Part shown: positions 4,127 to 47,675 of the stretch, piece after piece
Layout of the letters: each line of letters starts with the position of its first letter
Numbering within the stretch: position 1 is the stretch's first letter
DNA from: Candidatus Hinthialibacter antarcticus
Lineage (GTDB): Bacteria; Hinthialibacterota; Hinthialibacteria; Hinthialibacterales; Hinthialibacteraceae
DNA length: 47,675 nt
Assembly (NCBI GenBank): GCA_030765645.1
Contig: JAVCCE010000030.1
Location: forward strand, 1-47,675
Direction: 5' to 3'
The notes under the pieces: model-generated
What the model was told of the DNA's origin: nothing
The model's database searches: none
What the model saw: the letters and a program-made list of their open reading frames with translations, nothing else
Translations under genes and position numbers: made by a program

Positions 4127-6655
4127 ATGAACCGAAAAATTACTTATTTTCTTGTTTTATTGTCGCTGTTTCTAACTTCAGCAAACGCCGACGTGGTTAT
4201 CAACGAAATTCATTACAATCCTGCGGAACCGGGTTTTGAAGCCGGGTCGTTGCAAGAATTTATTGAATTGTATAACCCGCAGTCAACGCTCATTGATCTA
4301 TCCGGCTATCAGTTTACCAATGGAATCACCTATGTGTTTCCCGATGGGACGATAATGGGTGCGAATGAATACATTGTATTAGCGCGCGATCCGGCAGACC
4401 GGTCTTGGCGCGGCAGATACTCGCCTGACTTGGGGCCGTATGAAGGGCAACTTTCAAATAGCGGCGAGCGCATTCGCTTGGAGCGACCGGATGGTACGAT
4501 TGTCGAGAATTTTGAGTACCATGATGGCCCGCCCTGGCCGAGAACTTCAGACGGCTATGGTTCTTCGTTAGAACGCATTCAATGGGACCTGCCTTCCGCA
4601 GACTTTCACAGTTGGCGGGCTTCGCTTCAGACCGACGGTACGCCGGGTGAAATCAATACCGTCGCCAATGTATTGCCTCGTCCAATGATTATTGGTCACC
4701 AGACATTCCCCGCGCATCCGACTTCTGGGGATGCGGTTGCGGTTCAGCTTCACATCGACGCCGCTGACACAATTGATTCCGCGACGTTGCAGTGGGAGGT
4801 CGCCAACCAAAGGTCTTCTGGCTCAAACCCGAACCAACCAGAATTTTTAGTGCAAGGTTTTGATCGGTTTCGATATTTTAAGGGAACGAGCGACCCTTCG
4901 CCTGGTTTGGAATGGACGCAACCAGAATTTGACGATTCTCAATGGCGCGCCAGTAACGGCGGCTATGGTTATGGCAACGTCGATTTTGTCAGTACGCAAT
5001 TGGACGACATGCGGGATTCATATACTACGGTGTATATCCGTCGGGCATTCAATGTGCAGGATGTGGATGAATTAGAAACGCTTCTACTCTATACGTTCTA
5101 CAGCGGCGGTTTTGTCTGTTACATCAATGGGACGGAGGTCGCCCGCGATAATATTGCGGGTGAGGTTCAATTCGCTTCTACCTCGTCAAGAGTGAATAAT
5201 GCAAACAATCCATCTCTCATTACCATCGAAAATGCCAATGAAGTTTTGGTTGAGGGCGAAAACACAATCGCCGTAGTCGGTCTTGCGCGGCGGTTGAATC
5301 TAACGTCTTTCTTGATTGCCGTCTTCTTGCTTGAAGGCGAGCGCCGCGAAGGCTCCGACGAGGGAAGTCATCGCATTGAAATGAACAAGATTAGTACGAG
5401 CGACGATGTCGCGATTTATGAGGCTGTCATCCCGCCGAATTTATCGCAATCGTTGGTGCGGTTTAACGCCGCGCTTTCTTTAAGCGATGGCTCGTCTTTG
5501 ATCCTGCCGCATATCACCACGCTTCGACCATTTGAATCCTACTTTGTTTATGACGGTGAAGTAGAATCAAAACTGCCGATTCTCTGGCCCTATCACGCCT
5601 CGGTTTCGCAGTTGACTGAATTTGAACGCTCCGTCACTGGTATGGTAATTCTACCGACGGACGCTGTTTCTCCCTTGGTATTTGACGGCGCACTGGTTTA
5701 TCCATCACGCGGCGGGACGAAGTTGAAATTCCTGAAGGGCGAAGAATACCGCAACGACCGTACGCTCAACATGATGCCGGAGCGGCCAACCGGCGGAACA
5801 ACAGCGGGTTCTAGTTCGCCGCACCGTGAACATCTGGGCTATTGGTTTTTCAAGCGCTTCGGCGTGCCTGCGCCGAGAGCTGAATGGCATCGTGTTATCA
5901 CTAGCGGTGAACATACCCAACAGGTAGTGTTTCAGCAAATCAACGAGCGCTTTTTAGAAATGAACGGCTTAAATCCTAATGCGGACCTATTCAAGCGAAA
6001 TTACGTTAACCCAAAGTGGGAGCCGCATACCAACAAAGAAAACGGTACGGATGCGATTGATGCGCTGGAGCGGGCAATTCGCCAACGTAATGACGACGAT
6101 TTGCGGGCCGCGATTGAAGCCAATCTGGTGGAAGAAGAATTTTTGAGCTATAGCGTCGCCTCTGTCCTCACAAGCAACTGGGACGGTTTCCACAACAATC
6201 ACTGGATGTATCTCGACCCGGATACGCAGAAGTGGCAGATGATCCCTTGGGATTTAGATAAAGCCTGGGGATTTACCGACAGCAATTCGATGTTTGTCCG
6301 TATGCCGGTTGAGTTTCCCTTAAACGGCAGTGCCCAACACGCCGGGCGCGAGCCAGGCCCGATTACCGGATGGGTCCATCGGGACGCTACTTATGATGAA
6401 GCCTATCGAAACCGCTTACAGTATGAATTGACCCATACGTTCACCGAAGAATTCATGGGGACCAAAATTAACGAAGTCAGAGACTATTTGCTCGAAGATT
6501 TAGACTTGCTTGAAAGTCATATCGGCGATTCGCGCAATGAGCGCCGCGAGCAGATCAATGACTCAACTCAAACGATCTTAGACTTTGTCCAATTGCGCCG
6601 CGACTATCTGGTTGGTGAATTAGGAACGCCGATTCAGAACTGGGATATCTATTAA
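4127..6655 (+). CDS. Secreted lamin-tail domain / CotH kinase-like protein
   Basis: An 842-residue secreted protein with a signal peptide ending near residue 21 (SANA|D). A lamin-tail domain (about 22-150) follows, recognised by INEIHYNP at its start and the ELYNP..IDLSGY pattern. The middle (about 245-420) contains a beta-sandwich resembling a carbohydrate-binding module (DDSQWRASNGGYGYG, then a YINGTEVARDN segment). The C-terminal third is CotH-kinase-like: KGEEYRNDRTLNM, then FKRFGVPAPRAEW, then SNWDGFHNNHWMY and MIPWDLDKAWGF. CotH proteins are atypical kinases that phosphorylate spore-coat or surface proteins; in non-spore-formers their substrates are mostly unknown. SD-like GGGGAG lies at 4114-4119. 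The stop codon is the last triplet of the 8-bp target duplication of the miniature element that follows. Confidence 0.85.
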   Translation: MNRKITYFLVLLSLFLTSANADVVINEIHYNPAEPGFEAGSLQEFIELYNPQSTLIDLSGYQFTNGITYVFPDGTIMGANEYIVLARDPADRSWRGRYSPDLGPYEGQLSNSGERIRLERPDGTIVENFEYHDGPPWPRTSDGYGSSLERIQWDLPSADFHSWRASLQTDGTPGEINTVANVLPRPMIIGHQTFPAHPTSGDAVAVQLHIDAADTIDSATLQWEVANQRSSGSNPNQPEFLVQGFDRFRYFKGTSDPSPGLEWTQPEFDDSQWRASNGGYGYGNVDFVSTQLDDMRDSYTTVYIRRAFNVQDVDELETLLLYTFYSGGFVCYINGTEVARDNIAGEVQFASTSSRVNNANNPSLITIENANEVLVEGENTIAVVGLARRLNLTSFLIAVFLLEGERREGSDEGSHRIEMNKISTSDDVAIYEAVIPPNLSQSLVRFNAALSLSDGSSLILPHITTLRPFESYFVYDGEVESKLPILWPYHASVSQLTEFERSVTGMVILPTDAVSPLVFDGALVYPSRGGTKLKFLKGEEYRNDRTLNMMPERPTGGTTAGSSSPHREHLGYWFFKRFGVPAPRAEWHRVITSGEHTQQVVFQQINERFLEMNGLNPNADLFKRNYVNPKWEPHTNKENGTDAIDALERAIRQRNDDDLRAAIEANLVEEEFLSYSVASVLTSNWDGFHNNHWMYLDPDTQKWQMIPWDLDKAWGFTDSNSMFVRMPVEFPLNGSAQHAGREPGPITGWVHRDATYDEAYRNRLQYELTHTFTEEFMGTKINEVRDYLLEDLDLLESHIGDSRNERREQINDSTQTILDFVQLRRDYLVGELGTPIQNWDIY

Positions 6656-6917
6656 GGTTCTTCCCGTATTTGGGTGCTTTATCACAAATTGAATTGCGTT
6701 TTTTTAACGCTTTTTCGTGAATTCTTGATCTTTCGCTGTATCAGGCATGAGTACAACTCTGCTTGCTTCAGTGCGGGCTTTCACGCCCTTATGCACAGGC
6801 GCTCCCAGAGTTCCACCCATACCTGATTGGTTTGTCAATTTTTGAAATGCCGGAGCCCGTTTCTGAATCCAAAAAATGGCCATCCATCAAGGTAGGTACT
6901 CACTTACCGGATGAACC
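6656..6917 (+). mobile_element. Miniature ISL3-type element, copy 1 (262 bp), with 8-bp target duplication
   Basis: The left end reads GGTTCTTCCCGTATTTGG and the right end, read on the other strand, GGTTCATCCGGTAAGTGAG. Both resemble ISL3-family termini. The 8 bases TCTATTAA directly flank both ends (6648-6655 and 6918-6925), the target duplication size expected for ISL3 elements. The last 45 or so bases are a decayed copy of the transposase 3' end seen intact at 47555-47600. The middle holds a palindrome with arms 6744-6761 and 6806-6823. No transposase gene is present, so this element would need a transposase in trans. A short GCGTT-T5-AACGC hairpin followed by T's at 6696-6715 could end transcription from the CotH gene. 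Confidence 0.85.
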
Positions 6918-6952
6918 TCTATTAATAAAACCGAAATGGACCGACACCCCGA

Positions 6953-27843: not shown

Positions 27844-27891
27844 CGCGATATCCTCAATTAATCTTTAAATTGAATAATGATTCTTCTTTAA

Positions 27892-28088
27892 GGTTCTTCC
27901 GTAAATTGGATACTTATTTTATTTCGCTGCGTGCGGCATGGGCACAACTCTGTTCGCTTCAGTGCGGGCTTTCAGGCCCTTATGCACAGGCGCTCACAGA
28001 GTTGCGCCCATGCCTGAATTGGTTTGTCAATGTCGGAATCAAAATCATGGTCATCCATCAATGTAGGTACTCACTTACCGGATGAATC
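27892..28088 (+). mobile_element. Miniature ISL3-type element, copy 2 (197 bp), with 8-bp target duplication
   Basis: The left end is GGTTCTTCCGTAAATTGG and the right end, on the other strand, GATTCATCCGGTAAGTGAG. TTCTTTAA flanks both sides (27884-27891 and 28089-28096) as a perfect 8-bp duplication. The last 15 codons before the right end (…IKIMVIHQCRYSLTG then stop) still read as the C terminus of the transposase found at the window's right edge. A central palindrome (arms 27935-27952 and 27997-28014, 17 of 18 paired) forms the body. The element carries no full transposase. An open frame across it (27870-28085) is only read-through of the element. Confidence 0.88.
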
Positions 28089-28237
28089 TTCTTTAACCAT
28101 GATACCAAAATGAATTGTGTTCTGGAAGGTTATTGTCAATTTCTGGGACTTTAGTTTGATAGTCACAGGTTGCTTCGGTCGCGATCGTTTGCTCGCAATG
28201 ACGCGGATGCGGTAAATAGTGGTGATCCGTTAAAGTT

Positions 28238-37321: not shown

Positions 37322-37377
37322 AGAATTCAGTTTGCGATACATTACAATAAGCCATCTCAATTAATGCGTTCGAGAAG

Positions 37378-37527
37378 TAATTCGGCGTATCTGAAATTGA
37401 CAAACCCGTTTTGGCATGGGTGCAACTCTGGGAGCGCCTGTGCATAGGGGCTTGAAAGCCCGCACTGAAGCGAGCGGAGTTGTACCCATGCAACATACAA
37501 CCAAAGATCAAGTATTTTTGAGACGGC
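37378..37527 (-). repeat. Decayed palindromic repeat of the miniature-element family, copy 3 (reverse orientation)
   Basis: Arms at 37413-37430 (GGCATGGGTGCAACTCTG) and 37475-37492 correspond to those of the two miniature elements, read on the opposite strand. The shared flanks AATTGACAAACC before the left arm and AAAGATCAAG after the right arm extend the match to copy 1. ISL3-like ends and target duplications are not recognisable. It begins about 55 bases after the YggS stop. Confidence 0.8.
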
Positions 37528-37583
37528 TTCTACATCTTACCTCTAACTCCTCCCGAACTTTGGGAGAGTAAAGTAATCAATTC

Positions 37584-46467: not shown

Positions 46468-46525
46468 GCGTGGGTGTATCTCTCTTCGCTTCAGTGCGGG
46501 CTTTCAGGCCCTTATGCACAGGCGC
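46468..46525 (+). repeat. Truncated palindromic repeat, copy 4
   Basis: Bases 46485-46525 match the palindrome core of the element at 27953-27993 identically over 41 bases. The left arm is diverged (GTGGGTGTATCTCT) and the right arm is missing; the sequence changes directly into the end of the hydrolase remnant at 46531. It follows the Gfo/Idh gene. Confidence 0.85.
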
Positions 46526-47539: not shown

Positions 47540-47551
47540 GTACAAAATTAT

Positions 47552-47675
47552 GGTTCATCCGGTAAATGAGTACCTACATTGATGGATGGCCATGATTTTG
47601 AGTTTAAAGAATTCTTGATCTCGAAATCCATAGGCTTGGCGTTTCATGGTTTTGATTTTGTTGTTGGTTCCTTCG
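47552..47675 (-). mobile_element. Right end of an ISL3-family insertion sequence (continues beyond window)
   Basis: The terminus GGTTCATCCGGTAAATGAG at 47552 matches the right ends of the two miniature elements. The transposase stop codon lies only 3 bases inside it. The left end and target duplication partner are outside the window; the 8 bases before it (47544-47551) are AAAATTAT. Confidence 0.85.
47555..47675 (-). CDS. ISL3-family transposase, C-terminal part
   Basis: Forty codons up to the stop at 47555-47557 are visible. They read EGTNNKIKTMKRQAYGFRD, then QEFFKLKIMAIHQCRYSFTG. The Glu of EGTNNKIK is the last residue of the DDE catalytic triad as placed in ISL3/IS204/IS1001-type transposases, and the KRQAYGFRD block is a family hallmark. 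There is no frameshift in the visible part, so the copy may be active. It may supply the transposase needed by the miniature elements at 6656 and 27892. Confidence 0.9.
   Translation of the reverse strand, partial: EGTNNKIKTMKRQAYGFRDQEFFKLKIMAIHQCRYSFTG

Follow-up and report, generated by a model that had tools for sequence, protein, structure and literature searches.

A high-copy miniature element with ISL3-type ends and an apparently chimeric body in Candidatus Hinthialibacter antarcticus

ISL3-associated MITEs with 8-nt direct repeats are already known; a 187-bp element of this kind was described in Microcystis aeruginosa PCC 7806 (PMC11448079), and the first-pass annotation's remark that such elements are little described needs amending to that extent. 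Analysis of a 47,675-nt stretch of Candidatus Hinthialibacter antarcticus DNA (the window) revealed a 262-bp element that resembles the Microcystis MITE, as the parts of that report considered here describe it, in having ISL3-type inverted ends that match ISL3 elements of the same genome (full-length ones in Microcystis), 8-nt repeats, an internal stem-loop and a non-autonomous organization. The two differ in end sequence (GGCTCTTCG in Microcystis) and host, and the same parts of the report mention no second MITE body (PMC11448079). With ISL3 family insertion sequences (PF01610) the element shares GGTTC-type inverted ends and 8-bp A+T-rich duplications, and it keeps a remnant of the transposase C-terminus; unlike them, it lacks a transposase and appears to have drawn most of its interior from another mobile element. 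In this last respect it recalls TIMEs, miniature elements with a part in the formation of mosaic non-autonomous transposons, but TIMEs are described as Tn3-derived (PMC4133298), whereas the present element combines ISL3-type ends with a body from a TA-flanked MITE. What is new here is the high copy number and the chimeric body, found so far in this genome only.

The element is bounded by exact copies of TCTATTAA (Table 1), an octamer with a chance expectation of 0.72 occurrences across the whole window. Its ends, GGTTCTTCCCGTATTTGG and GGTTCATCCGGTAAGTGAG, are identical to each other at 17 of 25 positions. The last 51 bases encode IQKMAIHQGRYSLTG*T, for which the counterpart in the ISL3 transposase at the end of the window is IMAIHQCRYSFTG*, and the longest ORFs within the element (50-68 aa) include no transposase gene. 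The final three bases of the left TCTATTAA copy are the TAA stop codon of the CotH gene. Aligned with orthologues from two related genera, both of the same family, the CotH C-terminus stops at the same residue (..WDIY*, ..WQVY*, ..WPLY*); these orthologues do not carry the element, and the DNA beyond their stop codons is unrelated. The CotH protein is complete despite the insertion at its stop codon. The collections searched, which include no close relative, contained no empty site with a single TCTATTAA for this locus. The perfect duplication, ISL3-like ends, degraded transposase tail, palindromic centre and preserved CotH stop noticed in the first-pass annotation were therefore all recovered. 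An Rfam scan of the window found two tRNAs and nothing else.

Table 1. Positions of the miniature elements, ISL3 parts and associated features in the window.
Feature	Positions	Strand	Remark
CotH-like protein gene, stop codon inside target duplication	4127..6655	+	full length versus orthologues
Left target-site duplication TCTATTAA, includes CotH stop TAA	6648..6655	.	exact repeat
Type A miniature element with ISL3 ends, 262 bp	6656..6917	+	one of 65 complete copies, first set
ISL3 5' end of type A element	6656..6703	+	first 25 bp 22/25 to autonomous ISL3; weaker likeness to ~50 bp
Imperfect palindrome, common to second TA-flanked MITE family	6740..6827	.	sequence match
ISL3 3' end and transposase C-terminus remnant (KMAIHQGRYSLTG*)	6867..6917	+	38/40 to autonomous 3' end
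Right target-site duplication TCTATTAA	6918..6925	.	exact repeat
Type B miniature element with ISL3 ends, 197 bp; TTCTTTAA present at both 27884-27891 and 28089-28096 as target duplication	27892..28088	+	
TA-flanked MITE, type D, ends GAAGCC..TCTCAAAA / TTGAGATGGCTT, palindromic body as in type A	37348..37530	-	
Lone fragment of palindromic core	46488..46525	+	palindrome pattern match
Autonomous ISL3 3' end, PF01610 transposase C-terminus, cut by contig end	47552..47675	-	

A search of the 5.15-Mb draft genome with the type A element returned 46 matches, 42 of them strong. Pattern searches found 137 left ends (reversed-pattern control, 2), 75 right ends (control, 0) and, at three or fewer mismatches, 201 palindromes, with backward-pattern controls for the family searches at 0-2. 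At least 72 complete ISL3-ended copies could be cut from the genome: 65 unique copies first, and 7 further well-bounded copies later. In the first set, 24 of the 65 copies were flanked by exact 8-bp direct repeats, compared to a mean of 0.27 and a maximum of 2 when left and right flanks were re-paired at random, and 42 had an 8-bp duplication at one mismatch or fewer; duplications of other lengths were at or near chance. Many copies thus share both ends and are flanked by 8-bp duplications, contrary to the possibility raised earlier that other copies would have the palindrome in common but not the terminal repeats. An intragenomic empty site was also found: copy L063, with TTTATTTG on both sides, sits within another repeat, uninterrupted copies of which (L081 and L161) have a single TTTATTTG. 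At one locus (contig C47:3226-3715), two ISL3-ended copies, L010 and L080, stand in tandem with 8 bp (TTAATTTC) between them and the 8-mer ATAAAAGT on both outer sides, and the two may have transposed together as a composite.

The candidate autonomous partner is preserved in pieces. ISL3 transposase 3' ends lie at three contig ends (C30, C37 and C77), the window's contig among them, and matching 5' ends lie at three others (C6, C66 and C68); adjacent 8-mers join C6 with C30 (ATAATTTT) and C66 with C37 (ATAAATCT). The 8-mer AAAATTAT (47544-47551) adjoins the ISL3 copy at the end of the window and pairs with the 5'-end copy on C6, so that the 8-bp repeat of this ISL3 (47544-47675) indicates C6 as the neighbour of the window's contig. 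The PF01610 C-terminal fragments at contig ends score above the cut-off, while the middle of the insertion sequence is missing from the draft assembly, probably because identical copies were collapsed; since only the C-terminal part was assembled, we infer that an intact ISL3 transposase gene exists. The window copy matches this autonomous ISL3 at both ends, at the 3' end through the last transposase codons (Table 1). Because the parental 5' region is a good match for only ~25 bp, the source may be a related ISL3 element that is now lost. The ISL3 proteins of related genomes, at 32-46% identity over ~68-74 residues, offered no usable parent.

Taken with its shortness, its many copies, its 8-bp target duplications and its lack of a transposase, the match of the inverted ends to the ISL3 resident in the same genome leads us to classify the 262-bp element as very probably a non-autonomous ISL3-type MITE with a chimeric body, presumably dependent on the genome's own ISL3 transposase acting in trans.

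The large number of copies allowed us to examine where the family inserts. Targets were 91% A+T with the symmetric consensus WWAWWTWW, and the preference for TTAA-ending sites proposed in the first-pass annotation was not borne out (5 of 42 targets). In the 36 copies that lie between genes and have a clear duplication, 11 targets overlapped the stop codon of a gene, compared to 1.3 expected (~8-fold, P about 4e-8), an excess that persisted after matching for stop triplets; a single target, that of L097, covers the stops of two convergent genes simultaneously. Genes were called as ORFs on the rejoined flanks, and the expectation was drawn from pooled, motif-weighted sites, matching within loci having been discarded when most sites were lost to it. 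In the same 36 copies no start codon was overlapped, and bins 10-200 bp past stops were near expectation. The earlier suggestion that insertion at gene ends is favoured has mixed support, stop enrichment being strong in the first 42 well-bounded copies and absent in copies examined later: stop overlap was 3 of 85 in a new set with a single captured end, against 3.3 expected, and 0 of 7 in the later complete copies. Pooled, with the window copy excluded, 15 overlaps were observed compared to 6.1 expected (P = 0.0017), and we regard stop-codon targeting as no more than suggestive. D-type elements, whose target is just 2 bp, showed no stop overlap. The targets of L048 and L132 are the T-run directly after a terminator-like hairpin, so that insertions may often fall at intrinsic terminators.

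When the element lands next to or on a stop codon, one copy of the target stays with the flanking gene, and the insertion does no harm. It is possible, though less likely than not, that the excess at stop codons is a matter of survivorship, in which insertions that hit a gene, a promoter or a terminator are lost and those at gene ends persist. The scarcity of insertions within ORFs (6 of 42, compared to 26 expected) agrees with such a filter, but positions 0-20 bp past stops, which should be equally harmless, were not enriched (2 observed, 2.5 expected). An active preference of this lineage's ISL3 machinery for gene stop codons, beyond their A+T content, seems unlikely: the excess in the first set, the expected numbers further past stops, the lack of start-codon overlaps and the double hit by L097 speak for it, but the one-end copies and the seven later complete copies do not show it, and no mechanism that would let a DNA transposase recognise a stop codon is known to us. 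It is similarly improbable that ISL3-type integration is directed to stop codons as a built-in safe landing, in which the 8-bp duplication would leave flanking genes, even a convergent pair, each with a stop.

Returning to the ISL3-type MITE itself, analysis of its interior pointed to a second mobile element. The type D consensus is 186 bp with ends GAAGCCATCTCAAAAA..TTTTTGAGATGGCTTC that are unlike those of ISL3, and TA was found beside the left end in 16 of 26 copies and beside the right end in 16 of 26. Types A and B align with the whole interior of type D, including the palindrome and the ~60 bp on its right, while the ends do not align, and the left end of D is kept inside five ISL3-ended copies (L058, L065, L097, L110 and L150), beside TA or CTA. 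The palindromic centre had at first been assumed to belong to the ISL3 derivative; judged from these alignments, it appears instead to be the body of this second, TA-flanked MITE, which would make the ISL3-ended family a chimera of two MITEs. No IS630-type transposase (PF13358, DDE_3) was found in this genome, and for this reason type D was not filed under IS630/Tc1-mariner-type MITEs despite its TA flanks. That the 201-copy palindrome is instead an independent REP-like repeat, with the ISL3-like ends around it incidental, is very improbable, as palindromes do outnumber complete ISL3-ended elements, and some lie in D-type elements or stand as fragments with no ISL3 ends around them, but 61 of the 65 complete ISL3-ended copies include one, the 8-bp duplications are precise at the ISL3 ends, and most palindromes outside these copies fall within the bounded type D element.

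In a comparison of 70 distinct copies, pairing was intact at 96% of the positions in the palindrome; this pairing may have been retained through shared ancestry and is no demonstration of RNA function. The palindrome was absent from a genome-contig collection, viral contigs, phages, plasmids and 60 relatives. In several copies (L090, L207, L220, L188 and L274) the palindromic core is interrupted at one fixed point (GCTTCAGTG) by a third repeat whose ends are CCAATGTCATTGACTTAAG, apparently a further element nested inside the MITE. In L157 (contig C52, near 33282), D-type ends surround a different palindrome (GGGGAGGGCGAGGCTCC..), which suggests that MITE bodies are exchangeable.

For the chimeric ISL3-type MITE, the simplest history is that D inserted in an ISL3 element, followed by deletion. 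The second MITE, which has ends distinct from those of ISL3 and is flanked by TA, would have entered the ISL3 element near its 5' end (between ..GATTTA and TAGAAGC..), and a deletion would then have taken out the transposase gene and the right end of the second MITE, leaving the ISL3 5' end, the palindromic body and the ISL3 3' end. This product would have been amplified as at least two subtypes, of ~262 and ~232 bp, presumably mobilised in trans by the resident ISL3 transposase and integrating at A+T-rich 8-mers, with the palindrome probably a carried cargo.

The family provides a well-sampled ISL3 target motif and raises a testable question, namely what accounts for the large number of clean copies at stop codons. 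In sum, these results indicate that bacterial MITEs may swap bodies and ends, one palindromic cargo being carried by what would be two transposition systems that differ in the targets they use, 8 bp of A+T-rich DNA for one and TA for the other.
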